IMG/VR virus record: IMGVR_UViG_3300031566_000157
Span: 1-39,117 of that record
Length of the DNA: 39,117 nucleotides
DNA from: a virus
Reading direction: 5' to 3' (one strand)
The translations under genes and the position numbers were made by a program. This document shows positions 18,083 through 33,808 of this stretch, piece after piece. Numbering within the stretch: position 1 is the stretch's first letter; each line of letters opens with the position of its first letter. Below the pieces are notes generated by a model. That model had not been told where the DNA came from, did not search any database, and saw only the letters and a program-made list of their open reading frames with translations.

Positions 18083-19375
18083 TTAACCTATAGCCAGGTT
18101 CTTGATCAGGACAATGGCATTTACGTTCTCGATGGCTAAATCCGCTCTCAAACTATAGAAGAAGTAGGTAGCTTTGTCGGCAGCGGACCTTTCGGTTTCC
18201 ATTTCGATATCCCGGTGGATACCGATAATTAAATTGTCCTTATGGGTTAGCATACAGTCAGTAAGGGAACCCCCATTCAGTTTTCCATCCGCATCCAGGG
18301 TATTAGCCATTAATGGACAGGAAACAATAGGAATTTTTCCCCATTGAATCGGCGCCTGTCCTAAAATAGCGGTATCTCCTAGAGCAGTAGAACGTTCTGC
18401 TAATGCCTCGATGTAATCTTCCTCTACCTGGTCATTGGTGAAAAATCTGAGATTGGCCAAACCTTCCAACTTATATATAGCAGGCATTCTTCTTCTAGCT
18501 TTGGCAAACTTAAATTCCCAGTTATAAGGTGCAGTAGCGGCCTGTTCAACGATCTTCCCAGTAAGTAAGAAGTCTTGAATGGTGCAAACTCCCCCTGAAG
18601 TGTATGCAGTATATCCTGTTGAATCTATACCATCCAATGAGAAGGTATCAACAGTAAGCACAGTAATTTTATACAGCTTACTATTAAGTTCAATCATTCC
18701 TACTACATTAGTAATCTTCACTGTGTTCCCAGTAGAAAAACCGTGTGCTACAGCCGTAATTACACAAGGATCAGCTTGTGTTGCACCTGTAATGGCTGCT
18801 GTTGCCCCAGGAGCCGCATTCAATACGGTAGCCGAACCGGAAACATCATTTACGTAGTCTTGGTCTGCTCCACTATGGGTGATTCTGTATCTCCAGCCAT
18901 CAAAGAGGCTCCTGATATCAGTATTAGCGAAACCACCTAAGCTATGGGTATCTCCAATCCAATAAGCTTCATCGAGTTCATTAGCAATCTGTTTGGTTAC
19001 CATCTTCATGATATGGTCCATGAAAGCATCTCCCTCAATGTTATCCTCTATATCATCATCGTGGATTACGGCACAACCCCTCACTTCTTTGGCATTCAAA
19101 ACAATAAGGTTATGGCTAAGCTGTTGCTTGTAATCAGATGACACAAAAGTAGCCGCTGGATGGAGAAATTTGCCAGCACCCAATCCCATAGCCCTGATAT
19201 TTTTGCTCGCTTTATCCATCTTTACCTGTCTGGCATTATTTTTGAGGACAGATTGATCATATACGTAATCAATAAACCTATCCGCTTCCTCGGCAGCCAG
19301 AACAATGGTAGGCATGCTGATTAATGCCTTCTGGAAGCTTTCTTTATTTAATAGTTCACTATTAACTTTAAACAT
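18083..19375 (-). CDS. Major capsid protein with inserted E1-FCCH-like domain
   Basis: The 430-residue protein fits an HK97-fold major capsid protein: N-terminal arm (ESFQKALISMPTIVLAAEEADRFID), then DDDIEDNIEGDAFMDHIMKMVTKQIANELDEAYWIGD and a C-terminal LFDGWR.., ITNLAIG-type closing strand (NAIVLIKNLAIG). Between about residues 189 and 267 lies an inserted beta domain (AAITGATQADPCVITAVAHG, GNTVKITNVVGMIELNSK, FSLDGIDSTGYTAYTSGG). This pattern is known from FCCH-like domains first named in ubiquitin-activating E1 enzymes and often seen in phage proteins. It should decorate the capsid surface. It follows the scaffold gene as expected, and the ribosome binding site is GTGAGGTGAATAATAG. Confidence 0.8.
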   Translation of the reverse strand: MFKVNSELLNKESFQKALISMPTIVLAAEEADRFIDYVYDQSVLKNNARQVKMDKASKNIRAMGLGAGKFLHPAATFVSSDYKQQLSHNLIVLNAKEVRGCAVIHDDDIEDNIEGDAFMDHIMKMVTKQIANELDEAYWIGDTHSLGGFANTDIRSLFDGWRYRITHSGADQDYVNDVSGSATVLNAAPGATAAITGATQADPCVITAVAHGFSTGNTVKITNVVGMIELNSKLYKITVLTVDTFSLDGIDSTGYTAYTSGGVCTIQDFLLTGKIVEQAATAPYNWEFKFAKARRRMPAIYKLEGLANLRFFTNDQVEEDYIEALAERSTALGDTAILGQAPIQWGKIPIVSCPLMANTLDADGKLNGGSLTDCMLTHKDNLIIGIHRDIEMETERSAADKATYFFYSLRADLAIENVNAIVLIKNLAIG

Positions 19376-19425: not shown

Positions 19426-20553
19426 CTATACTCCAAATGAAGACCACTTCTTTTTGGGTTTATTTTCATCATCTCCACCATCATCTTGGCCTTCAATGGT
19501 CTTTTTTATTCCTTTATCTTTTTCCAGGGTCTCCAGTCTCTTGCTAAGTTCGGATATGCCTTTATCCTTTTCCTCCAAGTCTTTCCCCAGTTTTTCTATA
19601 GTCTGATCCTTCTCTTCCAGTTTCTTTTCTAATCTCTTGGCAATATCACTTACTTCATCTAAAGCATTTTTAAACTCTTTATCGGCATCTTTTCCTTCGG
19701 TGGCATCAGATTTTTTAAGTTTTATCTGATCTCCTTCAGGCAAAAGATCGTTCAAGGCTTTAACCACATTTTGAAGCTCGTTAAAGGCTTTAATTACGCT
19801 TTTAACTTTTCCTACAGTATCTTTGGAAAGTGCTTTCCCAGATTTCTCTACGTTCTTATCTTCTTCTTTCTTATCTTCTTCTTTCTTAACTTCTTCTTTT
19901 TTTTTGGCTGGATAGCCATAACCATAACTGGCATATTTAGCCAGTATTCCAACCGCATCTTTAAGGTCATCTGGAAAATCCTTTTTATATTTATCTATTA
20001 ATTTCAATGCCCCTTTTATAGCATTCAAGGCTTTATCAGAAAGTTCAGCTTTCTCAAGCTCGAATTCCTCGGGAGCAAAGCTAACTTCCTCATCAAAGTA
20101 TGAATCCAATAAATCTTTTAATTCTTTATTCATGTCCATTCCATTCACCTCCATTTCGGATTTTGACAGATAGAAAGTATCGCTGTGCTTAAATCCATCC
20201 TCGGTTTCGGTAATCTTTGAATAAGAGCAAGAGATTGGACTGCCGGCAAGTACTTTATCTTCTCCTCCCCGTGGTTTATAAAAAGAAAAATGAAAGTCCT
20301 GCAAGTTCTTAATCTCTTCTCCATTCAAAATTATTTTTGTTTCTTTGATGGTCCCATCACTTTCTATCGAGATACTTATTTTTTTATCATCCTTCTTCAC
20401 AATCAAGAATTTTCTCTTCTGGATATCAGAACTATCTTGATACTTGTCAAATAGTTCCTGCATATCCCTTTTAAAGAATAGAAACTTCTTTCTAGTTGCT
20501 GGCAAATCGGTAAAACTTATCTCACTTGGTTCTATATTCTTTAAATTTGCCAT
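19426..20553 (-). CDS. Capsid scaffold-like protein
   Basis: The ATG at 20551-20553 is preferred over an upstream GTG because AGGGGG lies six bases before it, giving 375 residues. The N-terminal half is a mixed domain of unknown fold (FSFYKPRGGEDKVLAGSPIS). The centre has a Lys/Glu low-complexity run. The C-terminus is a long coiled coil (DIAKRLEKKLEEKDQTIEKL and the following repeats) with an acidic end. Coiled coil, high charge and position between protease and capsid genes are typical of scaffolding proteins, which are removed by the maturation protease. The gene is preceded by the promoter-terminator unit at 20.6-20.7 kb. Confidence 0.65.
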   Translation of the reverse strand: MANLKNIEPSEISFTDLPATRKKFLFFKRDMQELFDKYQDSSDIQKRKFLIVKKDDKKISISIESDGTIKETKIILNGEEIKNLQDFHFSFYKPRGGEDKVLAGSPISCSYSKITETEDGFKHSDTFYLSKSEMEVNGMDMNKELKDLLDSYFDEEVSFAPEEFELEKAELSDKALNAIKGALKLIDKYKKDFPDDLKDAVGILAKYASYGYGYPAKKKEEVKKEEDKKEEDKNVEKSGKALSKDTVGKVKSVIKAFNELQNVVKALNDLLPEGDQIKLKKSDATEGKDADKEFKNALDEVSDIAKRLEKKLEEKDQTIEKLGKDLEEKDKGISELSKRLETLEKDKGIKKTIEGQDDGGDDENKPKKKWSSFGV

Positions 20554-20584
20554 CGATTGCCCCCTCACTTTGACCTAGCATCCA

Positions 20585-20705: not shown

Positions 20706-20735
20706 ATATTATCATAAAAAATTGGTTACTGTCAA
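20706..20735 (-). promoter_or_regulatory. Promoter before scaffold-capsid genes
   Basis: On the minus strand a perfect TTGACA (20730-20735) overlaps the TGA stop of the large fusion gene. An A/T-rich -10 follows: TAATAT at 20706-20711 (18-base spacer) or GATAAT at 20708-20713 (16-base spacer). Transcription would begin near 20699 and meet the terminator hairpin within about 110 bases. Confidence 0.6.
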
Positions 20736-23700
20736 ATATGCATAGCTCGGCCCGCTAATGAATAGCCAGTTATCGTGCCATCCTTTATTCCTTTCCAGAC
20801 TTTTTCATCTAATACTCGGGCGATTAATAACCAACTCCCCTTTTTTATTTTTTGATTATTTATCTCAAAATCCACTGGTGCAATATAAATTTCCAATACT
20901 TTGGTATCAATGTATTTACCTTTATGGTTAACCTTAAATTTTTGCGGGCCTTCCATGTAAGAATAAAGAGCTTTTCTTATCTCTTCTTCATTAGTAGTAT
21001 CACCCTGGCTATCTACTTCATTCGGAGCATAGACGACCCCGCATACAATATGCTCATCTTCTTTCTTAGAGATATCAAATATGGGAATAAATTTATTAAA
21101 TTCATAATGCTTAGATTTTCCAGCCCCAGCTTCTTCCTTGAGCTTAGATACCATCCAGACTCTTTCACCCTTCTTCCCGGCTTCGGTTATTGGTACATAG
21201 GCAAAAAGGTAAATCCCCTCTGGTATCACCTCTATATTTTTTATTTTTAGTTTCTTAGCATGATCATCCTGAGGTTCAATTGCGTTCCAATCAAAACCAT
21301 CAAGGATTAGCATAGCCCCATATTTATTAGTGGTAGCTCCTACTGCTCCTGGTGGGAATATCTCAATCTTATTCCTACCGGCTTTCATCCATGAAACGGG
21401 ACCTCTAATCGTCTCTGCCTCCGGTTCTTCTACTCTTGGCACCTTCCAACCAAATCTGAGTTTGCCGCCTTCTTTCAACCTCTTTAATTTATCTAAACCA
21501 GTAAGGTTTCCGATCATTATCTCTCCACCTTCAAAATAATCATCGCCTTTTCTGACCATTCTTAAATCAATATGGGCTCCTTGCTCACCTATTGCACCCT
21601 TTAATAGCATCTTTAATTTAGTCGGATTGGCTCTGGATCTTACTGCTTCAGCGGACACCTTCTTAAGTTCTGAAATTTTATCTTCCTCTATCCCCATTAT
21701 GTGAAGCTGCAGAACCCCTTTGCCGGTATTTCCTATCACATAATCTATATTCCCTTCCTCCGCTTTCTGTAACGTACCCTTTTCTCTTAGAATTTCTCTC
21801 TCTTTTTCCCAGGCTTCCTCGTCATCAAATTCGTGTTTTTGGTACCAGCTGTCGGGCATATTACAAATCCCGCCTACCGGCTCTTCATCTCCACATATCA
21901 GACAACGCGGGTGTCCGTTGGGATGGGTATATTTAGCTGCTTTAAACTCGTGAATCTTTCCTGCTAAAGGTTTCTTCTTATTTTCATTAATAACGGCTGT
22001 CTCCTTCCCATATTCTTCTGTTTGCTTATCTGATAATTTCTTTTCCATCCCTTCATCTTTATAGAATTCTCTCTTTAATTCAGCCCAGATATTTGGATTT
22101 CTATTATCCCCAAATTTCTTTGCTGCTATTCCATCTTTTACTTCTTTAACAGAGATTATTTCACCCTTACCATCACCGGTTGTGGCCCATTCCTTGAAAT
22201 GTTTCTCGCAAAACCAGGCATGGCCTATTCCCTCAGCCCATAAGCATTCATAAACGGGAGGATTAGAGCATTCCATACATTGATCTCTCTTATGCTGTGC
22301 CTTCTGTAATATATTCGCACGTTCAGCTATCCCTATCACCTGCTTAGCAAAATAAGGCTCTTTTCGGTCCTTATCAATATCCAATACCCTTGGTCCTAGC
22401 CATTGCAATTTATCTTCTTGAGGTATAATTTCTTCAATGCCTATAGTCAATATATCTCCTACGTTAGCATTTATCTTGGTATTAAAGGTCTTGCCTAAGT
22501 CAATATATTTCTTACCTTTGAATTCGATCAGATTAGTAAATTTACTGTCTCCGGGCAGCAACCCGCAATGATAGTTATAACCACCGGCCCGGTTAGGAAT
22601 TTTCTTAATGGCCATTACCTTTATCTCTGCTTCTATCTTTATCTTGGCCCAACCTTCAATACTCCCATCAGTATCCCAGATACTATTTAGATCCTTAACC
22701 ATGATGCCTTCGCTTTGAGGCAACCTAGATAATTTTTTAAACTGAGCTTCTAACTCTTTGCCATCTTTAACTATTATAAAATTAGTCAAGTCAAAATGGG
22801 GATCACCCTTTAGGTATTTACTATAAAACTTCTCTAACTGTTCTCTCCTCTCTTTTAGCGGTTTAATATGCAGATCTTCTTTCCAGTAAGGCAAATCGAA
22901 TATAGTAGCCTTTATAATATCCTTTTCTTCCAACACCGGCTCATCACTCATTAAAGTCATTAGCTTAATACGGGGTAAGGCCTTACCGTCTCTCTCGATA
23001 CCCAAGCCAAAATCAAGAATGAAATCCTCGGATATCTTCTGTAATACATTAACTAATTCTTTAAGTTGTTTAGTCCTATCTTTATCCCCTTCAGTTTTTA
23101 GCCTTAGTTTATCTCCCAGCTTTTCCGCTACACATCTAAAGGCATTAAGTTTTTCCTCCACGTCCAGAGGAAACCTATCCTTAGCCCAGTTTTCAATCTG
23201 GGAATATTCAAATGCTTCAGTAATTCTGGCCATCGTGGGCTTAGGTGGGATAAAAGTTCCGAAGGGTTTAAGGTTATCGGCTTTTTTGATTTTAGCCACC
23301 TTGATAATGGCTATAGCAGTGTTGTCTCCATGGTCGACCATTTTAATTTCATCATTTTTATCGAATAATGCTTTGAAATCATCTATTTTAATAAACTCCT
23401 GTTTATGTGTGGGATCAAGCCTCTTGCCCAGAGGACTAATAAATATAATCTTATTATTAGACACCCGGGTAGCTTCCTTAATAGTTTTACCGGGATTCTT
23501 TAAATGTTCTAATATATGAAGGCCGATAACATTACAGAAAAAATTATCCGCATAAGGTAACTTATCTTTTTCCAGATCAAGTTTTTTAACGGCCAAGCCT
23601 TTCTTTTTACACATATCCAGAGCTATATCATTATTATCTACTCCATCCACCTGGTAATTATAATAATCCGAGTTTATCAAAGCCTGCATCACTCGGCCGG

Positions 23701-23878
23701 TCCCGCAACCCAGATCTAGTATTGTCTTACCCTCTAAGTTTTTGGCCATCTCTGCAAAGTCATAAATAAAGTTCTGCTTCCATTCATCCAGGCCCTCATA
23801 GTATTCGTGGTCACCTTTGGCAAGATTAATTATTTTATGGATAATTTTTCCATTCTCTAACCCATGTTTTATTTCCAA
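20732..23878 (-). CDS. Fusion: methyltransferase, ATP-dependent ligase, LigD-PE-like region, XkdF protease
   Basis: The 1048-residue protein starts at TTG (23876-23878), set by AGGAGG eight bases upstream. Residues 1-195 are a class I methyltransferase (ILDLGCGTG 53-61, acidic D81). About 205-505 is an ATP-dependent DNA ligase: Lys243 in EEKLNAFR (motif I, usually KxDGxR), TIFDLPY 325-331 then a PLKERREQLEK helix, EGIMVK 390-395 (motif IV) and WAKIK 410-414 (motif V), then an OB-fold-like part. The motif III glutamate is not evident. About 530-675 holds two Cys/His clusters (CMEC 534-537; CLIC 659-662). About 710-915 resembles the LigD 3'-phosphoesterase: HIDLR 769-773 and PPGAVGATT 842-850. 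About 930-1046 is an XkdF-like prohead protease (VCGVVYAPNEVDSQGD, IKDGTITGYSLAG). The protease may free the parts. Confidence 0.75.
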   Translation of the reverse strand: MEIKHGLENGKIIHKIINLAKGDHEYYEGLDEWKQNFIYDFAEMAKNLEGKTILDLGCGTGRVMQALINSDYYNYQVDGVDNNDIALDMCKKKGLAVKKLDLEKDKLPYADNFFCNVIGLHILEHLKNPGKTIKEATRVSNNKIIFISPLGKRLDPTHKQEFIKIDDFKALFDKNDEIKMVDHGDNTAIAIIKVAKIKKADNLKPFGTFIPPKPTMARITEAFEYSQIENWAKDRFPLDVEEKLNAFRCVAEKLGDKLRLKTEGDKDRTKQLKELVNVLQKISEDFILDFGLGIERDGKALPRIKLMTLMSDEPVLEEKDIIKATIFDLPYWKEDLHIKPLKERREQLEKFYSKYLKGDPHFDLTNFIIVKDGKELEAQFKKLSRLPQSEGIMVKDLNSIWDTDGSIEGWAKIKIEAEIKVMAIKKIPNRAGGYNYHCGLLPGDSKFTNLIEFKGKKYIDLGKTFNTKINANVGDILTIGIEEIIPQEDKLQWLGPRVLDIDKDRKEPYFAKQVIGIAERANILQKAQHKRDQCMECSNPPVYECLWAEGIGHAWFCEKHFKEWATTGDGKGEIISVKEVKDGIAAKKFGDNRNPNIWAELKREFYKDEGMEKKLSDKQTEEYGKETAVINENKKKPLAGKIHEFKAAKYTHPNGHPRCLICGDEEPVGGICNMPDSWYQKHEFDDEEAWEKEREILREKGTLQKAEEGNIDYVIGNTGKGVLQLHIMGIEEDKISELKKVSAEAVRSRANPTKLKMLLKGAIGEQGAHIDLRMVRKGDDYFEGGEIMIGNLTGLDKLKRLKEGGKLRFGWKVPRVEEPEAETIRGPVSWMKAGRNKIEIFPPGAVGATTNKYGAMLILDGFDWNAIEPQDDHAKKLKIKNIEVIPEGIYLFAYVPITEAGKKGERVWMVSKLKEEAGAGKSKHYEFNKFIPIFDISKKEDEHIVCGVVYAPNEVDSQGDTTNEEEIRKALYSYMEGPQKFKVNHKGKYIDTKVLEIYIAPVDFEINNQKIKKGSWLLIARVLDEKVWKGIKDGTITGYSLAGRAMHI

Positions 23879-23881
23879 TTT

Positions 23882-24592
23882 CTAATCCTCCTTTATTTTT
23901 AAGACATCGCAAAATCCATATTTCCGTCTGGTTATAATCTCATTGGGGATCTTGGTTTTAGCTATTTCAACCATCAGCTTTTTTCTACATTCATTATCAA
24001 CTTTTTCGCTAATTGGAATCTGAGAGAATAATAGAAGTAACCTATTATCAAGATAGGGAAGATATATTTTTATCTGATTAGAATTTTTGTCAAGGGGAAT
24101 TAAATTTTTATTTTGTAATTCTCTAAGATTAGCATAATAAGTATCTTCGCAAGGTTTATCTTGGTGACAATAGTATCCACACATAAACTCATCTATCCCA
24201 TCACAAGCTATTATTTTATCTGTATATCCTCTCAAAAACTTATAGAATAATCTAACTGCATTATCCCCTTCAAATTCTTCAAAAGATTCTTTAGCGTCTT
24301 TTATTTCAATACAAGAAGGAATATAAACCCTATGAATAACATTATCAAACTTATCTGTAACCAGTTTTGAATATCTAACATCGGGATGTAATTCTGAAAT
24401 ACCCATTGTAAAAGTTTCCACTTGTTTATGTATTTTAAGCATGAAATAAAGCATCAGACTTGAATCCAATCCTCCCGAAAAAGATAAACAATTACAATCA
24501 ATCTCAGATAATATTTGCAAGATTGTATTCTCAATATCTTTGAGTTTTATTGGTTGCCCTATTTCTTTCCAGTTTTCAGGATATATAATCAT
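23882..24592 (-). CDS. Asparagine-synthetase-like ATP-pyrophosphatase
   Basis: The ATG at 24590-24592 is preferred over the GTG nine bases upstream because AAGGAG sits eight bases before it, giving 236 residues. It is the synthetase half of asparagine synthetase B without the glutaminase half. The PP-loop SGGLDSS (residues 39-45) binds ATP, DGIDE (131-135) corresponds to the GDGxDE motif, and YLPYLDNR (177-184) and RRKYGF near the C-terminus match the synthetase core. Such enzymes activate a carboxylate as an adenylate and pass it to an amine donor. Lacking a glutaminase, it would use ammonia or another amine. It sits between the nucleotidyltransferase and the large fusion gene, with the fusion gene's ribosome binding site in its last codons. 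The substrate is unknown. Confidence 0.8.
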   Translation of the reverse strand: MIIYPENWKEIGQPIKLKDIENTILQILSEIDCNCLSFSGGLDSSLMLYFMLKIHKQVETFTMGISELHPDVRYSKLVTDKFDNVIHRVYIPSCIEIKDAKESFEEFEGDNAVRLFYKFLRGYTDKIIACDGIDEFMCGYYCHQDKPCEDTYYANLRELQNKNLIPLDKNSNQIKIYLPYLDNRLLLLFSQIPISEKVDNECRKKLMVEIAKTKIPNEIITRRKYGFCDVLKIKED

Positions 24593-24594
24593 AA

Positions 24595-25491
24595 TTACCA
24601 CTCCTTGGCCTTTTCCTTAAGGGTCATTCCCGATTTCATTTCTTTAGGTTTTATCTTGTTCCCTTCGGCTTCCTCGTCTGACCAAACAACTTCTTGGGTA
24701 CGTTCCAACCCTTTTATCACATGGAATATTCCCTCTTTAATCTCCTTGCCACCTAAATAAGCCTTTCCATTTTTGATTAACAGATGCTCCTGTTCAAACA
24801 TATTGCCAATATGGTCATAGACTAAGCAGTGATGGATTTTCTCTTCTCCTTTATTGTCAATCTCTATATGATGAAGAAGATACTCATAATCTTCTAAAGT
24901 ACGCTCTGGTCTTAAGTCTTTTTCTATTTTTTCCGATTTACTATAATCTTCTTTAACTTCAACCCTGTTAATCTTATTTTTCGATCTTAAAACCAAATCA
25001 AAAAGCGGAATGTAAGTTGAATGAGCCCCGGTTTCATTATAAACAAAATGGCATTTCTTCTCGATCTGCTTCTGCATTAATCGGGATAGCTTTAATTCCA
25101 ACCCTTCATCCCGTTTTCTTTCATCTTCTCTTACAATTAAATCCAGGTCATCTGCATCTTTCGGGGATTTGACGAAACCGCCACCAATGGACACATAATC
25201 GGGAACTTTTACTATATCACCTAAAGAGGATGTATTTAGCCCATATATATTTTTTCTGAATAATGCCCTATCGATGCTTTGAACACCATGAGTACGTTTC
25301 CTCTTATTCATCTCCTTAAGCAGCAATCTATATTGATCGAGAAAGTTATTCCTCTCTAATTTATCTACTTTCTGTCTATTATTATCTTCAAACCATTTAT
25401 TGAAAAGTTGAATAAATCTCAAGCGCAGGCTGTGTAATTCTAGACCTGACAATTTACTTAATTTTTCTGAAGTCATTTCCTCTATCTTCAA
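24595..25491 (-). CDS. Pol-beta-type nucleotidyltransferase
   Basis: The 298-residue protein starts at TTG (25489-25491) with AGGTGATT upstream. The central domain has the pol-beta nucleotidyltransferase pattern: SIGGGFVKSPKDADDLDLIV (about residues 101-120), where the Gly-rich strand precedes an acidic DxD that binds metal. A later strand, PLFDLVLR (about 161-168), may carry the third acid. The N-terminal 90 residues are helical and basic; the C-terminal third (HIEIDNKGEEKIHHCLVYDH) is unknown. Its acceptor could be nucleic acid, protein or a small molecule. It belongs to the enzyme block with the synthetase and the fusion gene. Confidence 0.6.
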   Translation of the reverse strand: MKIEEMTSEKLSKLSGLELHSLRLRFIQLFNKWFEDNNRQKVDKLERNNFLDQYRLLLKEMNKRKRTHGVQSIDRALFRKNIYGLNTSSLGDIVKVPDYVSIGGGFVKSPKDADDLDLIVREDERKRDEGLELKLSRLMQKQIEKKCHFVYNETGAHSTYIPLFDLVLRSKNKINRVEVKEDYSKSEKIEKDLRPERTLEDYEYLLHHIEIDNKGEEKIHHCLVYDHIGNMFEQEHLLIKNGKAYLGGKEIKEGIFHVIKGLERTQEVVWSDEEAEGNKIKPKEMKSGMTLKEKAKEW

Positions 25492-25578: not shown

Positions 25579-25809
25579 TTAATAAATCCTACCCTTTACG
25601 AATTTAGGCCTATCAGTTATTTTTACTATCATGCCACCTAGTTTTTTAACTGTTTCTTTAGCAACTGCCAAATCCGAGAAGGGAGAATAGTCCGTAAGAG
25701 TGTCCCTAGAAAATACTGATAACATATCTTTTAAAAATTTATCTTTACATTCCCATTTATCGTCTTTTATGGTGGCCTGAACTCCTTCTATCTCAATAGT
25801 CACAGCCAT
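25579..25809 (-). CDS. Small unknown protein
   Basis: The 76-residue protein starts at an ATG that overlaps the stop of the MuF-zincin gene by one base, with GGGGGAAG upstream. It has two short beta strands at the start (VTIEIEGVQATIKDDKWECK), a helix and a basic C-terminus (PKFVKGRIY). No family is recognised. Its place directly after the head morphogenesis gene suggests a head-related role. Confidence 0.5.
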   Translation of the reverse strand: MAVTIEIEGVQATIKDDKWECKDKFLKDMLSVFSRDTLTDYSPFSDLAVAKETVKKLGGMIVKITDRPKFVKGRIY

Positions 25810-27497
25810 TAATACTTCCCCCTCACCAGGTTATAAATGAAATCAAAATATCCCGGGTCCTTAGTAGCCAATCTATAAGGATTTTTATAGAACTCTCCCA
25901 GCCCCATACTTAATATCTCACTCGCCTTTCCTTCGTAATCTTTTCCCATATAAACGTCGATAAACTTATCTTTTCTGGTAAGCTCGTCTGCTCCGTATCC
26001 GTCCAATAGACGAATCAAACCTTCTCCTTTAGTTCGTTTCTTATAGAAGGCCATTATCGATTCATGCACTTTTGGGTTCATATCTTCCAGCCAGTGTCCC
26101 AGTTCATGGACAACCACTTCGGTATTTTCATAAAGTATCGAAGGTTTACCGATATAAATTGAACCTCTTGAATAAAATGATCTGGCTGCGGTTTTCCCAA
26201 CCCGGGGGAACATAACTCCCGTAGATTCCTTATCGATAAGCTTACTAAATTCCTTTATTGCATTTTTGAAAAATGGTTTCTCTCTTTCTTTTATTAATTC
26301 AGCCCATTCTGGATATAGGTTAAAACCTTCTTCAGATACCTGCAACATCTTCCTCATCTTTATATTATCTCTTATCCTGATAAAATCTATCTTAGCTTCA
26401 TTCTTCAGATACAGGTCTTTATATTTTTCTGCCGAATCAGTGAGCCCAAGTCTTTTAAATTCGAGTGATCTCTTTTGGTATCTGTAGGACTGACGTTCAA
26501 GTCCAGCAAGTTCTTCAATTGAATCTTTATGGATCTTCTCGATTCCTGACCTTACCATCCCAGGAGTTTTTGGTTTCCCTGGAACTTTAGGCTTCTTAGG
26601 AACCCCTGGTTTTTTCTTCCTGGGAACTACTACAATCCAATGACACCGGCAATTAGGATGTTTTGGAAGGACTCCTCTAGCTTCGGCTCGCGTGAATCTT
26701 TGCCCCGCCAAATCCAGACATTCGGAACAGGCATCTCCGGCCGAAGATATCTCCACCTCTTCATACCGAGTCCCCTCTAATGAATCTAAATAGCCCTCAT
26801 TCACACTTCTCGATACCTCTGTTCTAGCTATTAATTCACTCCGGTCTCTCAAAAGTCTATCATAACGTTTAGTATACTTTTGTAGATATAACTCTTTAGG
26901 GAGCTTCTGTGCCTCTAAGACTTTTCTATATTTCAGTAAGGCTGCACTCTGTCTCCCATTTAGCCCCACATCTTTTAAATGTTCTATATCCCTTGCTACC
27001 TGAGTAAGCGTCTTCCCTTCCTTCAATCCATGGGACACTATTTCCCGGATTCCTTTTTTCGTCTCCTTTTCTACCAGCGTGATTAATTCATAAGAGTATT
27101 TCTCGGCCCACTTAACCGATAGGGGATTTATTACATCAAAAGAGGCCTCGATCCTGGCATGCGCTCGGGATAAGTTACCAGATCTCTCCATTATATTAAG
27201 ATAGGCTGGCTTGATTATACTCTTGCCTTCTTCTTCTATCGTCTCCCAATCTACATAATCTATTATTATTTGGGACTTGGATTTCTTTTCAAATTTTAGA
27301 ATCCTATTTTTAATATCTCTGATAATCTGTTTCCGAGATAGTTGCATCCAATCCCGGATCTTAGGATATAGATAGGCCTCACACTCATCCATCAATTTAA
27401 GTATTTGCTTCCTCATCCTTTCTTTGCGGCCTACCTTCTCAAAAAATATACCTACAAGTTTATCCAATTCCTCTACGGTATCACTGGTTAATGGCAT
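25809..27497 (-). CDS. MuF-like head morphogenesis protein fused to zinc metalloprotease
   Basis: The 562-residue protein has two parts. The first (about 1-295) resembles the SPP1 gp7/Mu F minor head proteins: a helical N-terminus, RTEVSRSVNEGYLDSL, and the metal-binding-type motif CSEC (257-260) with HPNCRC (280-285). After a Pro/Lys-rich hinge (KPGVPKKPKVPGKPKTPG) and a helical linker comes a zincin-like domain: HELGH (464-468), with Glu527 in ASEILSMG as a plausible third zinc ligand. Such C-terminal enzyme domains on MuF proteins are often effectors carried in the virion. It sits directly after the portal region. The peptidase substrate cannot be told. Confidence 0.75.
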   Translation of the reverse strand: MPLTSDTVEELDKLVGIFFEKVGRKERMRKQILKLMDECEAYLYPKIRDWMQLSRKQIIRDIKNRILKFEKKSKSQIIIDYVDWETIEEEGKSIIKPAYLNIMERSGNLSRAHARIEASFDVINPLSVKWAEKYSYELITLVEKETKKGIREIVSHGLKEGKTLTQVARDIEHLKDVGLNGRQSAALLKYRKVLEAQKLPKELYLQKYTKRYDRLLRDRSELIARTEVSRSVNEGYLDSLEGTRYEEVEISSAGDACSECLDLAGQRFTRAEARGVLPKHPNCRCHWIVVVPRKKKPGVPKKPKVPGKPKTPGMVRSGIEKIHKDSIEELAGLERQSYRYQKRSLEFKRLGLTDSAEKYKDLYLKNEAKIDFIRIRDNIKMRKMLQVSEEGFNLYPEWAELIKEREKPFFKNAIKEFSKLIDKESTGVMFPRVGKTAARSFYSRGSIYIGKPSILYENTEVVVHELGHWLEDMNPKVHESIMAFYKKRTKGEGLIRLLDGYGADELTRKDKFIDVYMGKDYEGKASEILSMGLGEFYKNPYRLATKDPGYFDFIYNLVRGKY

Positions 27498-27721: not shown

Positions 27722-29209
27722 CTAACTTTCCCCTTCATCTTTCCCCACTTCTTTAAGAAAGTCACCTTCGGCTAGTTTGCTAATTCCCTCTTGAAGATCT
27801 TCCATTGCCTTGATAAATTTGTCTTCTCTCTTTTCCAGCTCTTCTTCTCCTACCTCTACCAAACTAGAACCAATATAAAATTTGTTTCCCCCCCGATAGG
27901 GTTTGCCTATATCCAGTAAATTTATTACTTGATTGGGAGTCATTGCCGCTGATTGAATCAAAGATACATACCTTTTGGCTTCGGCATCTACATCTCTGAT
28001 ATCTAGATCGTTAAGCTTGAATTTATAGCATTCACAATTTAATCCCTGCTCTATAATCTTATGATTTACTATATCCTCGATATCTTCCTGTAATGGTTCG
28101 ACGACTCCATTCTTATATATCTCGGTAGATTCTTTAATATTGGTTCCGCCTAATCTGCCCACAATATTAAGTCCTATACGGTAGCCTGGCATAGAATAGG
28201 CCATTAACACATCATCTATCAACCGCTGAGTATAGACCCTAAAACTGCCTTCCTGTATATCCACTGAAAGCTTTTCAGAATCCATGGAATCGCCTTCATT
28301 GACCTTGAAGACCATGGTCTTGTGGGCATTCTTAGAACCTTTAATCTCGGTATCCAGGAATTTTTCAATCTTCTTGGGTGAGTCATCGGACCAGTTGCCT
28401 TTTAAGACGATCATCCAGGCCGGGACCCCGTAGTTTTCAAAGAAGGCCAGATTGTAATCCCGAATTTCAATCAGGGCAATGACTGAACCGATGGCAGACA
28501 GGATATTAGGGGCACCATAATAATCAGAACGGGGATAATAATTTTTATAATAGATAAGTTCATTAGCCCTAGTCTTCAGGTCATAGGTTCCTTTCTTCCC
28601 ATCCTTAGCGGAAATATTATCTTTTGCTCCAAAGGCCTTGAACCAGACTTCTTTAAGTCCCCGTTGCTGAAAGAATTTCTCCTTTTTCTTGTGTATCTTA
28701 AAGGTATGAGCCGGAGTATGATAAATCTCTGCAATCTCACCTTTAGCATCCCTTACCACTTCCAAACCCCACCAACCTATTATTCCCCAATCAATCAACA
28801 GTTCATTTAGGATAGTCCTCAAAGAATCATCAGGATTGGGTTTTTCCAAGAACCCTTGGATCTTTTTACTCTCGGCCTCATTCTCCTTTTTGCCTTCCTT
28901 CAGGACCAGCTTCCAACCTAATCCGGCTACATCCTTGGCTATTTGCTTTACGCAAGCAGAAAATACCGAATTAGATTCATTTAGAATTAAAAAATTAGTG
29001 GGATTGTAGGGATAGGAAACCAAGCCCCTGATCCCGTAGACTTCTTTTTGGACCTGTTTGGAGGATTTTTCAAAAGCAGATTTTCGGCCTTCAGCCTTAA
29101 ATTTATTTAATATCGAAGTGGAGGCACTTTTGCTGGTCTCCACATAAACATACGATTGTTCTTTCTTACCTTTATCTTTAATATCTTTTTTATTATCCGG
29201 TGTAGACAT
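27722..29209 (-). CDS. Portal protein
   Basis: The 495-residue protein follows the large terminase (17-base overlap) and has the features of HK97-type portals: a Lys/Ser-rich N-terminus, SVFSACVKQIAKDVAGLGWK, YYKNYYPRSDYYGAPNILSAIGSVIAL, the stem segment NYGVPAWMIVLKGNW, and a C-terminal region with GRLGGTNIKESTEIYKNGVV and MTPNQVINLLDIGKPYRGGN. It forms the ring through which DNA enters and leaves the head. The ribosome binding site is AGGGGGAGACAAG. Confidence 0.88.
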   Translation of the reverse strand: MSTPDNKKDIKDKGKKEQSYVYVETSKSASTSILNKFKAEGRKSAFEKSSKQVQKEVYGIRGLVSYPYNPTNFLILNESNSVFSACVKQIAKDVAGLGWKLVLKEGKKENEAESKKIQGFLEKPNPDDSLRTILNELLIDWGIIGWWGLEVVRDAKGEIAEIYHTPAHTFKIHKKKEKFFQQRGLKEVWFKAFGAKDNISAKDGKKGTYDLKTRANELIYYKNYYPRSDYYGAPNILSAIGSVIALIEIRDYNLAFFENYGVPAWMIVLKGNWSDDSPKKIEKFLDTEIKGSKNAHKTMVFKVNEGDSMDSEKLSVDIQEGSFRVYTQRLIDDVLMAYSMPGYRIGLNIVGRLGGTNIKESTEIYKNGVVEPLQEDIEDIVNHKIIEQGLNCECYKFKLNDLDIRDVDAEAKRYVSLIQSAAMTPNQVINLLDIGKPYRGGNKFYIGSSLVEVGEEELEKREDKFIKAMEDLQEGISKLAEGDFLKEVGKDEGES

Positions 29210-30437
29210 AACTTTCTTGTCTCCCCCTTTCTTTTAAAAATGTTGCTATGGCATACCTCATGCAATCCATTCCATCGTCTAAATTCTTAACCATATCCTC
29301 TTTTCCCCTAGTGGCCCAGATGTAAGTACCAAATTCTTCTTCGGTTCTGATAGGCCTATTAATCATCTGTAATCTCTGGTCCACCTCCACCAAGGAATCC
29401 TCAAAAAAGAATAGCTGATTATTCTCAAATTTTGTATACACTATCTGCTGCCCAACAAGCCTATCCCTCTTTGCTGGTATAGTCTTGATCTTATTCTCCC
29501 TTAGGGTAGCCATATCTTCCGCATCGTGGTCACAAATGACTATGGGTTCAATCCCATCGATAGCACAATATTTTTTAATTTCGACACTATGGGCCTTTAC
29601 AGTACGATAAGTGTGGTAAATTTGCCTATATAGATACCAAGTATCGTTGGGATTCACATACCACCATTGGCATACGAAGGGATGATCAAAACCAAAGTCA
29701 ATAGTTATAACCCTTCTTCCATCCTTGGGTATCTCGAATCCCTTTATAATATGCTTGGTTGGATCAAAGGGATAAACCAATCCCTCAAAGGATACCCACT
29801 TTCCCTTCTTATATCTTTCTCGGTATATCCCAGTTAAGCTGTTGATCCGTTTATAATAACTTTCTGGCAGATCAGGAAGTATATTTCCCTCTATTTTCTG
29901 GTAGTCATCATCCTTTTTCTGCATATAAAATCTTTTATACAGAAAATGACTCGGTGCCCCCGGATTGGTAGCCAATAGTAATTGATGAAAGGGTACACAG
30001 GGCAACCTTAAACATCTGATTATCTTTTTATCATAGTCCTCTTCGGTAATCTCCACTGCCTCTTCCACTGCAATAAAACCATATTCATGAGAGGCCAATT
30101 TATTTATATCGTAGGTGGAATCCAGCCCGAATCCCTGTATCTCCGCACCATTAATCAATCTCCTGAATAGTTCCGTATCGTTTTTTTGGATCACATTTTC
30201 AGGCGGCAGTATCTTGTCGATAAGCCATTTCCAAAGGGTGGTCTTTAGGTCAACCCTCTTTTTCCTGATAAGGGCAATCCTATTATTACGATACATAAGA
30301 GCCAAAAAGTAGGCCTTCTCCGCAAGTATATGGGTCTTGCCGCTACCCCAGGGTCCATTAAATAACAAGTTAGGGGCTGTATTTTCCATAACCTGCTTTT
30401 GGGCTTCCGATTTAGCCTGAAATACTGTTTTTTTCAT
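29193..30437 (-). CDS. Terminase large subunit
   Basis: The 414-residue protein is the DNA-packaging motor and nuclease. Walker A is GPWGSGKT (28-35), Walker B is FIAVEEA (121-127) and the coupling motif is LLATNPG (154-160). The nuclease half has its conserved acids in TIDFGFDH (Asp247), VICDHDAED (about 305) and DDGMDCMRYA (about 392). It overlaps the small subunit gene upstream by ATGA and the portal gene downstream by 17 bases, so packaging genes are tightly coupled. Confidence 0.92.
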   Translation of the reverse strand: MKKTVFQAKSEAQKQVMENTAPNLLFNGPWGSGKTHILAEKAYFLALMYRNNRIALIRKKRVDLKTTLWKWLIDKILPPENVIQKNDTELFRRLINGAEIQGFGLDSTYDINKLASHEYGFIAVEEAVEITEEDYDKKIIRCLRLPCVPFHQLLLATNPGAPSHFLYKRFYMQKKDDDYQKIEGNILPDLPESYYKRINSLTGIYRERYKKGKWVSFEGLVYPFDPTKHIIKGFEIPKDGRRVITIDFGFDHPFVCQWWYVNPNDTWYLYRQIYHTYRTVKAHSVEIKKYCAIDGIEPIVICDHDAEDMATLRENKIKTIPAKRDRLVGQQIVYTKFENNQLFFFEDSLVEVDQRLQMINRPIRTEEEFGTYIWATRGKEDMVKNLDDGMDCMRYAIATFLKERGRQESYVYTG

Positions 30438-30854: not shown

Positions 30855-32273
30855 TCAATCACTCAACTTTATAGCCTGCTTACCGGTAAATTTCTCATAT
30901 CTTAATAAAGTAACTTCCCCGTATATCGGTTCTATCTCTATCGCTCGACATTTCCTATGCATAATATCGCAAGCGATGATAGTGGATGCTGAACCACAAA
31001 AGGGCTCAGCTACTATCCCATCTCTTGGTGAAAGTATTTTTATATAAGGGACTAGTATCTGGATCGGTTTAGTGCCAAAGATTATATTCTGGCCACCTGA
31101 TTTCCCGGTTTCTGCAGCGTGAGTTATATGATCTGCTACCTTTGCCCATAAGGTGCCCTTCCTTCTATCCCAATATCCTTTACCTTTCTGGCCATATATA
31201 ATAACTTCATATGTATCTAAAAGCTTTTGGCCTCTATCCCGGAGATATTTCTCCATTTCTTCTTCATATCCTTCATTTCTTATTCCTTCTCCAGCTAGTG
31301 GGGCGATATCATATTTGTTAAAAAAATATCCTGGTCTGGAAAATCCCTGACATCGGTTAGGCAGCCACCAGATCACCATATTCTTTATCTTCCAATATTT
31401 CGCTATAGCCTGCCATATCTCTATGGTATTCCTCCAGTTTTCAAAGACCATAACATTGGCTCCCTTTGGATTTTGAAAGTCATTAGCTATGGAGAGCCAT
31501 TCATCATATTCTGGTACTCCACCTCTTCTATCCATATCTAAATAACTTCTATTTTGTTTTGCTCCAAATCCATTTTTTGCTGGTTTACCATTACCTGCTG
31601 TTTGACCTACGGATAAATAAACCTTTTGTCGTTTTAATATAAATCCATTTTTGATTTTTTGTTTATGAACTCTCTTTTTTGAATATGCTAATTTATATGG
31701 CGGGTCTGTGAAGAGATAGTCAAATTTTTCTTCTCCAAATAATCTGTTCCAATTATCTCTATTGGTGCAATCTCCGATGATTATTTTATGCTCCCCTAAC
31801 TGCCATAAGTCACCATCCTTGACTCTTCTAATTCCACCTTTAAGCAGCTTCTCTAATTCTTTATCCACATCGAACTCTTCATCAACATTCAAACCGAAAA
31901 CATCATCTAATTCTTCTCTGCTAAATCCTACATCTACTAGCATTTCTTCATCGTAATTGGCCAGCAAATCATAATCAAAATGCCCTAGATTCTTATTTAA
32001 CCTCAAATTTAGCTCTTGCTCTTTTTCTAACTTAGTGATTTTCACATAACTAACCGGTATTGTTTTATAGCCCATTTCCTTTGCTACTAATAGCCTTTGG
32101 TGTCCACCGATGACTATATTCTTTCTATTCTCTGCAGAATTGACCACTATCGGTTCTACAAAATCAAATCTCTTCAAGCTTTCCTTTAAATCTCTGTATT
32201 CCTTTTCAGTTAAAGCTCGGGGATTATATTCTGAAGGATTAAGTTCTTCTATTGGCACATCTTTTATTTCCAT
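30855..32273 (-). CDS. ParB-like domain fused to beta-class DNA methylase
   Basis: The 472-residue protein has an N-terminal ParB/Srx-type domain (PIEELNPSEYNPRALTEKE, then IVIGGHQRLLVAKEMGY at about 54-69). A DNA methyltransferase follows with DPPY at 190-193 and the AdoMet-binding motif FCGSAS at 425-430. DPPY before the FxG motif is the beta-class order, which gives N6-adenine or N4-cytosine methylation. The C-terminal helix IEIEPIYGEVTLLRYEKFTG is typical. It overlaps the upstream methylase by 10 bases. The ParB-like part may bind or use nucleotides and DNA. A role in protecting phage DNA from host nucleases is likely but not shown. Confidence 0.85.
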   Translation of the reverse strand: MEIKDVPIEELNPSEYNPRALTEKEYRDLKESLKRFDFVEPIVVNSAENRKNIVIGGHQRLLVAKEMGYKTIPVSYVKITKLEKEQELNLRLNKNLGHFDYDLLANYDEEMLVDVGFSREELDDVFGLNVDEEFDVDKELEKLLKGGIRRVKDGDLWQLGEHKIIIGDCTNRDNWNRLFGEEKFDYLFTDPPYKLAYSKKRVHKQKIKNGFILKRQKVYLSVGQTAGNGKPAKNGFGAKQNRSYLDMDRRGGVPEYDEWLSIANDFQNPKGANVMVFENWRNTIEIWQAIAKYWKIKNMVIWWLPNRCQGFSRPGYFFNKYDIAPLAGEGIRNEGYEEEMEKYLRDRGQKLLDTYEVIIYGQKGKGYWDRRKGTLWAKVADHITHAAETGKSGGQNIIFGTKPIQILVPYIKILSPRDGIVAEPFCGSASTIIACDIMHRKCRAIEIEPIYGEVTLLRYEKFTGKQAIKLSD

Positions 32274-33670
32274 ATTATTAATTCTCCCTGTTTTTTTCTT
32301 TCTATATATCCTATTCTCTTTCGAGCTATCTCATAATATTCAATGCCCAATTCAATGCCAACATAATTTCTATTGGTATTTACACAAGCTACACAAGTTG
32401 TCCCCGTTCCCATGAAAGGATCTAAAACTATTTGTCCTTCTCTGGTTATAAGTTGTATGAGGTATTCGCAAAGTTTTTCTGATTTTTGTGTGGGATGTGA
32501 GACAATATGCTTTTGTTCACTATCAGGTTTACCATGTTTATGGTCTTCTCCTTCCTTTGTTGGAAAAGCATCTTGGCAGATTTGACAATAAAACCACCTT
32601 TCACTTCTTGATGCCTTTGCACAATAAAAAAAGCGGGAAGCACCGCCTGTATCGTTAAAATGTTGCCCTGTTATTCCAGATGCTCCAAAATTATTTGTAA
32701 CTCCATTACCGCCCTTATGCTTATCCGTATCTCTCCAGCCACTTTTTAGCACCCCACTCTGCTCATTTAACATCTCGCCCGCTTCCTCATCCAAGATTAC
32801 ATTAGCAGGGAAGCGACCTTTGTTATTCGGGTATAAATGAATATCAGCATTTTTCTTTGTAAAATAGGTTGTATCATTATCAGACTTTCTACCCCTTGCT
32901 AAATCTTCTTTTTCTAAATCACATCCTATCCTTCCCCCATCAACATCAATCCCCCCTGTTCCCCATTTCAAAATGTTTTCAGCAACTGTTTTCTCTGATA
33001 AGGGTTTCCTCACAAGCCACCAGCATTCTACGGCTGGTTTCAAACCTGTTCCCCATCCTTCCCATTCGGAATTGCCTTTAGTAATTTCAATTTGTCCACT
33101 TACTCCAAAAGTGCTATTTTGTGATTTTGCCTTACAATCCCATTCTTTTTTTCTTATTCCATCAGCGACATCAGGTAATTGATATTTTCCAACAACCTTT
33201 CTTTCATTCCTTTGTAATTTATCTATCGCCTTTCCTATGTTCAAACTTTTCGAAAATCCTTGCCCAAAAATATGATACACACAATCCCGAATTTCAAAAC
33301 CTGCTTCCTCTAAAGCAAAAGCAGTCCAGTGTGAAGTTCTTGGCAAGGCCCATACAAGAGCATGTCCGCCTGGTTTCAATATTCTTTTCGCCTCAGTCAT
33401 TAAATCCGTGAGCCAACTGATAAATTGATTTCTCGCCTTTAAACTTTTGTCCCAATGAACATCACAAGCAAATCCTGGTGAACTGCAATCATTGCCGGAG
33501 CCTGTTCTTCTACAAGAGTTCCCTCTACCACCCTTCGGAAATGTATCCCATTTCTCACCCATAAAACTTATCCCCGCGGGCGGGTCAGTTAACATTCCAT
33601 CAAAAGAATTGTCCCCAAAAGTCCTTAATATCTCTTTGGAATCACCCTGTATTATTTTATTCATGGACAT
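32264..33670 (-). CDS. Beta-class DNA methylase (DPPA variant)
   Basis: The ATG at 33668-33670 is chosen because AGGGAGA lies eight bases upstream; the frame continues upstream into the terminator but has no ribosome binding site there. The protein is then 468 residues long. It has the motif TDPPAGISFMG (DPPA at 29-32, where most relatives have DPPY), followed by ILKPGGHALVWALPRTSHW, FEIRDCVYHIFGQGF and a C-terminal DPFMGTGTT (417-425). The order is again beta class. A Cys/His cluster (YCQIC..., EDHKH) near 330 may bind zinc. It is the first gene after the promoter-terminator unit at 33.8 kb. Confidence 0.82.
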   Translation of the reverse strand: MSMNKIIQGDSKEILRTFGDNSFDGMLTDPPAGISFMGEKWDTFPKGGRGNSCRRTGSGNDCSSPGFACDVHWDKSLKARNQFISWLTDLMTEAKRILKPGGHALVWALPRTSHWTAFALEEAGFEIRDCVYHIFGQGFSKSLNIGKAIDKLQRNERKVVGKYQLPDVADGIRKKEWDCKAKSQNSTFGVSGQIEITKGNSEWEGWGTGLKPAVECWWLVRKPLSEKTVAENILKWGTGGIDVDGGRIGCDLEKEDLARGRKSDNDTTYFTKKNADIHLYPNNKGRFPANVILDEEAGEMLNEQSGVLKSGWRDTDKHKGGNGVTNNFGASGITGQHFNDTGGASRFFYCAKASRSERWFYCQICQDAFPTKEGEDHKHGKPDSEQKHIVSHPTQKSEKLCEYLIQLITREGQIVLDPFMGTGTTCVACVNTNRNYVGIELGIEYYEIARKRIGYIERKKQGELIIWK

Positions 33671-33737
33671 CGACCTAATCTCCCTTTTGAACAATGCCCA
33701 AATGTTTCTCGAATCTTTGCCCAAAATTGTATTTTTA

Positions 33738-33808
33738 TTCAAAAATAAAAAATGACCTAAGCCCTCTTAAATTATTTTCCAATAATCCTCGAAAGAGCTT
33801 AGGTCATT
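33738..33808 (-). terminator. Intrinsic terminator in leader of methylase-packaging operon
   Basis: An 11-pair stem joins AATGACCTAAG (33751-33761) and CTTAGGTCATT (33798-33808), extended by CTCTT (33764-33768) with AAGAG (33793-33797) and an inner ATTATT/AATAAT hairpin (33771-33776 and 33781-33786). On the minus strand a T-run (TTTTTTATTTTTG) follows. The hairpin begins about 37 bases after the predicted transcription start, so it would stop most transcripts at about 105 bases unless relieved. Confidence 0.8.

Follow-up and report, generated by a model that had tools for sequence, protein, structure and literature searches.

A viral head-gene polyprotein that joins an ATP-dependent DNA ligase and a LigD-like phosphoesterase region to an XkdF-type prohead protease

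Prohead proteases of the XkdF type act within the prohead. Packaged polyvalent proteins with C-terminal assemblin-like peptidases have been described (Iyer et al. 2017, PMC5512222), and XkdF is reported to be unrelated to the SH-superfamily prohead peptidase (jumbo-phage review, PMC7824862). For mycobacteriophages Omega and Corndog, circularisation of the genome by Ku together with host LigD is known from Pitcher 2006, as cited in PMC7719229; the latter paper, which cites these two Ku-encoding phages, reports that components of non-homologous end joining (NHEJ) are lacking in about 3,000 actinobacteriophages. Here we examine a 39,117-nucleotide stretch of viral DNA (positions 1 to 39,117 of IMG/VR record IMGVR_UViG_3300031566_000157, hereafter the window), in which a single gene encodes a polyprotein comprising a methyltransferase, an ATP-dependent DNA ligase, a region resembling the 3'-phosphoesterase (PE) of LigD and an XkdF protease. 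We give roughly an even chance to the proposal that this is a virion-packaged polyvalent protein, through which the prohead protease co-packages, and probably frees, enzymes for the repair of DNA ends and nicks.

Architecture and recurrence of the polyprotein

The polyprotein is encoded on the minus strand and starts at a TTG codon at position 23878, with AAGGAGG in front, overlapping the end of the upstream open reading frame (ORF). Its parts are as follows.

20732–23878, minus strand: polyprotein ORF, 1048 amino acids in an uninterrupted frame, in the order methyltransferase, ligase, Zn clusters, 3'-phosphoesterase, XkdF protease
23279–23809, minus strand: S-adenosylmethionine-dependent methyltransferase domain, MetW / Methyltransf_11-like (Pfam, residues 49–147, E about 1e-11 (2e-11))
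22340–23266, minus strand: ATP-dependent DNA ligase catalytic core (Pfam DNA_ligase_A_M, residues 236–414, E 9e-11)
22079–22291, minus strand: first Cys/His cluster (CMEC...FCEKH), from sequence; a mobile insert module found at 29 loci of the set
21854–21961, minus strand: second Cys/His cluster (HPRCLICGD...GGIC), from sequence; a mobile insert module found at 30 loci of the set
21131–21760, minus strand: predicted LigD-type 3'-phosphoesterase domain (AlphaFold model, VIA-align, profile alignment, conservation)
20735–21103, minus strand: XkdF prohead serine protease domain (PF14550, Peptidase_S78_2; Pfam residues 936–1047, E 1e-27)

In the N-terminal part of the chain, ILDLGCGTG occupies residues 53–61 and EEKLNAF contains K243, followed by TIFDLPY (325–331), SEGIMVK (389–395) and WAKIK (410–414). 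The two Cys/His clusters, the first of which has no Pfam match, lie at about residues 533–560 and 658–675, and the C-terminal part contains HIDLR (769–773), PPGAVGATT (842–850), NHKG (984–987) and GYSLAG (1038–1043). The XkdF domain scores 97 bits against a PF14550 cut-off of 24, and since its catalytic residues His985 and Ser1040 are kept in every family member readable there (His in 74/74, Ser in 73/73), it is probably active. All four domain assignments of the initial annotation are supported, and its quoted motifs are present in the protein; it had, however, left the strand unstated and missed a nucleotidyltransferase (NT) encoded at 24595–25491.

When IMG/VR was scanned with the whole protein and with separate alignments of the PE, ligase and NT domains, clustering at 90% identity gave 90 clusters, of which 54 carry ligase, PE and XkdF in one ORF, 45 of them together with NT. 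The recurrence in other phage contigs by which the initial annotation had proposed to check the fusion is therefore strong. A misassembly, a frameshift or false motif matches could in principle have produced such an arrangement, and a frameshift or assembly error had been named beforehand as what would overturn it; nothing was found in favour of these explanations, which are refuted by independent recurrence, open frames and significant profiles and retain a negligible probability. Since 54 distinct proteins of uncultivated viruses show this fusion with its domains in the same order, we conclude that it is not an artefact.

The most constant partner of XkdF is NT, and eight clusters have NT (in one or two copies) and XkdF alone. 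The weighting of modules thus differs from that of the initial annotation: the methyltransferase listed there is optional, with another module or none in its place in many relatives, whereas NT, unmentioned there, belongs to the core. The two ORFs that precede the polyprotein gene in the window are listed below.

24595–25491, minus strand: Pol beta-superfamily nucleotidyltransferase ORF, with the domain at 24928–25482 (profile, alignment, DxD...D)
23882–24601, minus strand: asparagine-synthase-like PP-loop ORF (Pfam E 6e-19), lying in an inserted segment of about 1.1 kb

NT carries the signature G[GS]...DxD...D with all three catalytic Asp residues conserved, and one member matches Pfam DNA_pol_B_palm (E 4e-6). 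A model of NT gave weak Foldseek and VIA fold matches, including minimal nucleotidyltransferases (NTases) of the MNT type; its match to an L29-like helical hairpin (Z about 7) was not used as evidence. In L001 and L002 (95%-identical contigs; relatives are designated by L numbers), NT is joined N-terminally to the polyprotein, and in the window it is a separate ORF. The insertion, which is absent from L001/L002, separates NT from the methyltransferase exactly at the border of the two, and judged from this comparison the NT of the window belongs to the polyprotein system, from which the insertion split it off. The inserted segment covers 23882–24601 plus the 3' third of 24595–25491.

The phosphoesterase and ligase domains

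An AlphaFold model of the PE region, built from 39 relatives, has a predicted local distance difference test (pLDDT) score of 93. VIA re-alignment of this model, which took in 1000 PDB chains, returned LigD PEs as all six best matches (Z 12.5 for 3p43, 12.3 for 3p4h, 10.7 for 3n9d, 10.6 for 3n9b, 9.6 for 5dmp and 8.6 for 2lj6), the next-best match having a Z of 4.2. Plain Foldseek comparison of the model with the PDB brought up no significant match (best E 0.065), and profile searches with the PE region alone found no match in Pfam and none in the PDB by sequence. The relationship to LigD is visible only by VIA re-alignment and profile alignment, in addition to weak matches to Pfam LigD_N in two divergent relatives (L164, E 0.0028; L168, E 0.005) that fall below the curated cut-off of that family; among A1 members LigD_N had no match.

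In a profile–profile alignment of the viral PE with ten cellular LigD PEs (P 3e-6, global mode), the viral Q-x-H and H-x-D-x-R fall on Gln40, His42, His48, Asp50 and Arg52 of P. aeruginosa LigD. His42, His48 and Asp50 are the Mn ligands of the LigD PE, in which His84 and Tyr88 have roles in phosphate binding (reviewed in PMC8656161). The corresponding Mn triad of the window is His727, His769 and Asp771, with Arg773 also conserved, and equivalents of the three ligands are kept in 58/60, 64/64 and 64/64 distinct viral members, respectively. Considering that the six best PDB matches of a confident model are all LigD PEs, a LigD-type 3'-phosphoesterase fold with a Mn site is supported for this region, whose putative activity would be that of a 3'-phosphatase or 3'-ribonuclease. 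The LigD-PE-like assignment of the initial annotation is thus borne out by the structure model, the profile alignment and the weak LigD_N matches.

As the initial annotation had noticed and a motif table confirmed, the ligase of the window has an altered motif I (K243-L-N-A in place of the LDGx pattern) and lacks the motif III acid; motifs IIIa, IV and V are intact. Within NCBIfam it scores best against DNA ligase D (TIGR02776), with E 5e-12 and a score far short of the curated cut-off. Against the PDB, the ligase family profile matches the archaeal DNA ligase 2cfm (E 2e-17) and LigD 1vs0 (E 1e-4); its matches are to DNA ligases of archaea and eukaryotes and not to RNA ligases. Among 60 distinct viral members, the motif I Lys (59/59), the motif IIIa Asp and the motif IV Glu (60/60) are invariant. 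The motif I Asp and the motif III Glu covary: both are kept in 15/60, and of the 42 Asn-bearing members only 3 retain the Glu. Ratios of non-synonymous to synonymous substitution (dN/dS) of 0.02–0.11 in the pairs tested, with 0.08 for the ligase of the window, indicate purifying selection.

We rejected the idea that the ligase is simply dead because its Lys is invariant, its dN/dS is low and the changes in motifs I and III are coupled; as far as sequences can tell, a changed enzyme under selection fits better. The earlier suggestion of a possibly inactive ligase was therefore too simple, given the invariant nucleophilic Lys, the purifying selection and the canonical KxDG/acid pair in about a quarter of the family ligases, those of L164 and L175 among them. 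The corresponding Glu of NAD-ligases has been assigned to the ribose O-2' (PMC5052709), which allows the speculation that nucleotide use has changed in ligases with an altered motif III.

The altered residues also bear on an assembly role, in which the N-terminal domains would be pseudoenzymes that bind DNA or form a core and help to build the head or to arrange the packaged DNA, with no need for catalysis. Such a role would be in line with the changes in ligase motifs I and III and at PE His84/Tyr88, and with a scaffold gene next to the polyprotein gene, but it does not account for the invariance of the nucleophilic Lys, the Mn triad and the NT triad, for the canonical ligase of about a quarter of members, or for cargo domains that are freely swapped and a ligase that is sometimes absent. 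We consider it improbable.

Head-gene context and proposed role

The gene order TerL (terminase large subunit) – portal – MuF – polyprotein – scaffold – MCP (major capsid protein) is conserved across relatives, and the polyprotein gene is almost always found between the MuF/portal and the scaffold/capsid genes. The gene thus stands where a maturation protease belongs, as first proposed from the window and now seen as conserved head-gene synteny. In the window the neighbours are:

29193–30437, minus strand: terminase large subunit (Pfam E 2e-11; PHROG E 1e-31)
27722–29209, minus strand: portal protein (Pfam E 2e-33)
25809–27497, minus strand: MuF minor head protein, the upstream neighbour (Pfam Phage_Mu_F E 3e-7; conserved synteny)
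19426–20568, minus strand: scaffold-like protein, matching the C-terminal part of the XkdF-scaffold family phrog_3017 (PHROG E 2e-7; synteny)
18083–19375, minus strand: major capsid protein candidate (phrog_1623 virion structural protein, E 9e-58)

We infer packaging, cleavage, delivery, substrate and activity of the polyprotein domains from this architecture and synteny. Several domains of unrelated activity are combined in one chain within a head gene cluster, as in polyvalent proteins, and XkdF occupies the C-terminal end, where such proteins have their assemblin-like peptidase if one is present. Nucleic-acid enzymes (NT, ligase and the LigD-type PE, and in relatives also uracil-DNA glycosylase (UDG) and Dam methylase) are fused ahead of XkdF and would be carried into the prohead by XkdF and its scaffold. 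There, XkdF would probably cut them loose at linker sites with the candidate consensus I/L/V-x-K↓A/G/S, and the freed enzymes would remain with the packaged genome or leave with it on ejection. In the virus's own DNA, 3' ends could then be cleaned, ends filled or tailored, and nicks or ends sealed; repair of nicks, gaps or ends is suggested by an enzyme set consisting of a glycosylase, NT, a 3' end-healing PE and a ligase. Two hypothetical cleavage sites of this type were located at domain borders of the window.

22295–22309, minus strand: site following the ligase at which the protease may cut, I/L-L-Q-K↓A ([ILV]xK[AGS] at a domain border)
21758–21772, minus strand: site ahead of the PE at which the protease may cut, T-L-Q-K↓A ([ILV]xK[AGS] at a domain border)

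In a first set of proteins, the motif [ILV]-x-K↓[AGS] occurred 50 times at borders compared with 16 in shuffled sequences, and its density was 12.1 per 1000 residues at borders and 6.4 in domain interiors; the respective values for a second, more divergent set were 46 and 17, and 9.6 and 5.3.

Several observations weigh against repair of viral DNA by packaged enzymes. The candidate cleavage motif is just 1.8–1.9 times as frequent at borders as within domains, a difference confounded by shared descent. The His84/Tyr88 pair of LigD is replaced in the viral PE, mostly by Gly or Gln and invariantly by Trp, respectively; candidate stand-ins for the pair are a near-invariant His in DDHAKK and an invariant Trp in SWMKAG. 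The motif I Asp has become Asn in about 70% of members, usually with loss of the motif III Glu, and many family ligases, with both motifs changed, may not self-adenylate normally. The NT fold is minimal, its relatives often modify protein or RNA, and its role may not be that of a polymerase. Moreover, the ligase is missing in some members (L017, L076, L128), in others PE is missing too (NT and XkdF only), and Ku (PF02735) was found in 0/23 viral records, many of which are fragments.

The same gene context is open to a reading in which the enzymes do not enter the virion at all: the polyprotein would be cut, or would work, in the infected cell late in infection, in genome repair or in end preparation before packaging, the fusion serving co-expression only. 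The late operon position agrees with this, as do enzymes without XkdF in the same ORF in ANMV-1, L040 and L065–L068. Against it, 54 distinct proteins retain the in-frame fusion to a prohead protease and NT-only fusions to XkdF exist too, so that we hold it to be very improbable.

The cargo ahead of XkdF is exchangeable. Inserts between core domains include UDG at 13 loci (E 2e-23 in L061), D12/Dam methylase at 15, metallo-beta-lactamase (MBL) at 10 and ADP-ribosyltransferase (ART)-like domains at 6, as well as three types of Zn cluster and undescribed domains; locus counts exceed the numbers of distinct proteins, loci overlapping between scans. The UDG, Dam and MBL modules lie within the same reading frame as the core domains. 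L026 and L032 are 89% identical to each other in NT and 94% in XkdF, with the methyltransferase–ligase block exchanged for MBL and a canonical ligase (LIG 30% identity). Conversely, the window and L013 are 84–87% identical in methyltransferase, ligase and PE and 33% in XkdF. Members of one ART family are found on MuF in L020 (1936–5160; PF03496 E 2e-19) and as polyprotein inserts elsewhere (L005:9441–10133, L131:5935–7542). Since this family sits on both carriers, effector modules move between two head proteins, MuF and the polyprotein.

Two further features of the inserts were seen. An undescribed domain of about 145 amino acids (LNSPTFAYKAVYG...RPRVVVAGK), without a Pfam match, occurs at 11 loci; in L025, L003, L014, L016 and L027 it lies between PE and XkdF. 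L003:4719–11249 is a single ORF of 2177 amino acids with three tandem copies of a Dam-type methylase between NT and methyltransferase.

Modular exchange, with its ART, Dam, MBL and Zn modules, is also what would be expected of a conflict effector whose packaged domains act mainly on the host and not on the virus's own ends. NT and ART would then modify proteins or RNA, the methyltransferases DNA, and ligase and PE would reverse cuts made by host nucleases or act on tRNA. The MNT-type NTases among the weak Foldseek matches of the NT model point the same way, such NTases having been tied to protein modification (PMC5512222). On the other hand, the recurrent core consists of ligase and PE, with UDG at 13 loci, which is a DNA-repair set, and the ligase profile matches DNA ligases and not RNA ligases. 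Host-directed action, the main rival to repair of viral DNA, is in our judgement rather unlikely, and the two overlap where restriction cuts are repaired.

As to hosts, four loci were found in metagenome-assembled genomes, in bins labelled Thermoplasmatota, Desulfobacterales, Aminicenantes and Omnitrophota; because these are both archaeal and bacterial, no host is claimed. The phage and plasmid collections contained no family member besides ANMV-1, the one entry among 50,697 phage records with a relative of the NT–ligase–PE portion.

Other features of the window were observed in passing. The MuF protein has a C-terminal HELGH metallopeptidase-like region with a match to phrog_33618, and within the major capsid protein candidate lies an FCCH-like domain (PF16190, E 8e-13), which looks like the insertion of a surface domain. 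Upstream of the terminase, at 30855–33742, are two adjoining ORFs for DNA methylases, one of which also carries a fused ParB N-terminal domain; the two are recognisable in some relatives (L001, L026).

If the polyprotein does package repair enzymes, a capsid maturation protease would double as the carrier by which enzymes enter the head, and DNA repair would be carried in the particle and not left to the host. Part of the polyvalent-protein class would gain a defined, testable function, and the family would be a first set of LigD-like enzymes from viruses, from which new ligases and 3'-end-healing enzymes could be drawn, and would offer a means of loading capsids with protein by protease fusion. 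It would also make testable the old question of how viruses that infect slow-growing sediment microbes preserve or regain intact DNA ends and genomes free of nicks when they have persisted for long outside a cell. The interest of the system is that its cargo is coherent, widespread and directly testable. More tentatively, and as something less likely than not, we suggest that a widespread group of tailed viruses of anaerobic archaea and bacteria pack into each capsid a complete break-repair set (glycosylase, end-tailoring NT, 3' end-healing PE and ligase), made in one chain with the protease that then releases it in the head, that Ku-independent end joining arrives with the genome, and that the paired motif I/III change reflects an altered nucleotide or substrate chemistry of the ligase.

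Comparison with known systems

The polyprotein resembles LigD (bacterial and archaeal POL, PE and LIG) and archaeal stand-alone PEs in its PE fold, its ATP-dependent ligase and a third nucleotidyl-transferring domain, combined in one chain. Unlike LigD, which has a POL of the primase type (archaeo-eukaryotic primase, AEP), the viral side has a Pol beta-superfamily NT; its PE is without His84/Tyr88, its ligase is changed in motifs I and III in most members, a protease and other modules are fused to it, and it is encoded in a viral head operon. A primase-type POL gave no Pfam match in the polyprotein, which is not excluding alone, as some LigDs are without a domain. Since there is no primase-type POL, PE His84/Tyr88 are replaced and no Ku was found in 23 viral records, many of them fragmentary, the polyprotein is not a LigD orthologue. 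The likeness to LigD end-joining enzymes drawn by the initial annotation consequently holds for the combination of domains in one chain and fails as orthology.

The closest single ORF is AJP62006 of ANMV-1 (KP703175), a methane-seep archaeal virus, annotated as an 'ATP-dependent DNA ligase'. It likewise joins NT, ligase and PE in one ORF within the head cluster, flanked by the portal protein and by a protein whose end is MuF-like; in contrast to the window, it has no XkdF domain and no methyltransferase, and its motif I is a canonical KFDG. Conversely, XkdF or head maturation proteases and scaffolds of cultured phages (psiM2/psiM100, lactococcal) share protease family and gene position with the polyprotein, but none of the five examined carries NT, ligase or PE. 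'DNA methyltransferase', the label of PHROG 1530, was rejected as an identity for XkdF, which is just a protease in the phages examined. XkdF proteases are so tagged in many Lactococcus, Pseudomonas and Rhizobium phage records (e.g. L074, L073; phrog_1530), which looks like an annotation error.

Omega and Corndog share with the role proposed for the polyprotein an NHEJ-type chemistry on the virus's own ends; they supply Ku and borrow host LigD, whereas the present viruses encode LigD-like enzymes themselves and the 23 records searched yielded no Ku. The internal proteins of phage T4 undergo protease processing. T4 Alt, other internal proteins and MuF-fused effectors are, as proposed here, head-packaged enzymes delivered with the DNA (described in PMC5512222), but their targeting relies on a signal of their own or on MuF and involves no fusion to the protease. 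With phage polyvalent proteins the likeness extends to large multidomain chains, a (pro)phage head context, a peptidase at the C-terminus (assemblin-like in those proteins), Pol beta NTases, ARTs and methyltransferases. No mention of DNA ligase, LigD-PE or UDG cargo was found in the text of the paper describing them (PMC5512222), and neither this fusion nor such cargo on a maturation protease was found described in an open-access library that excludes preprints and most subscription papers. The architecture class was already known; this cargo appears to be new.

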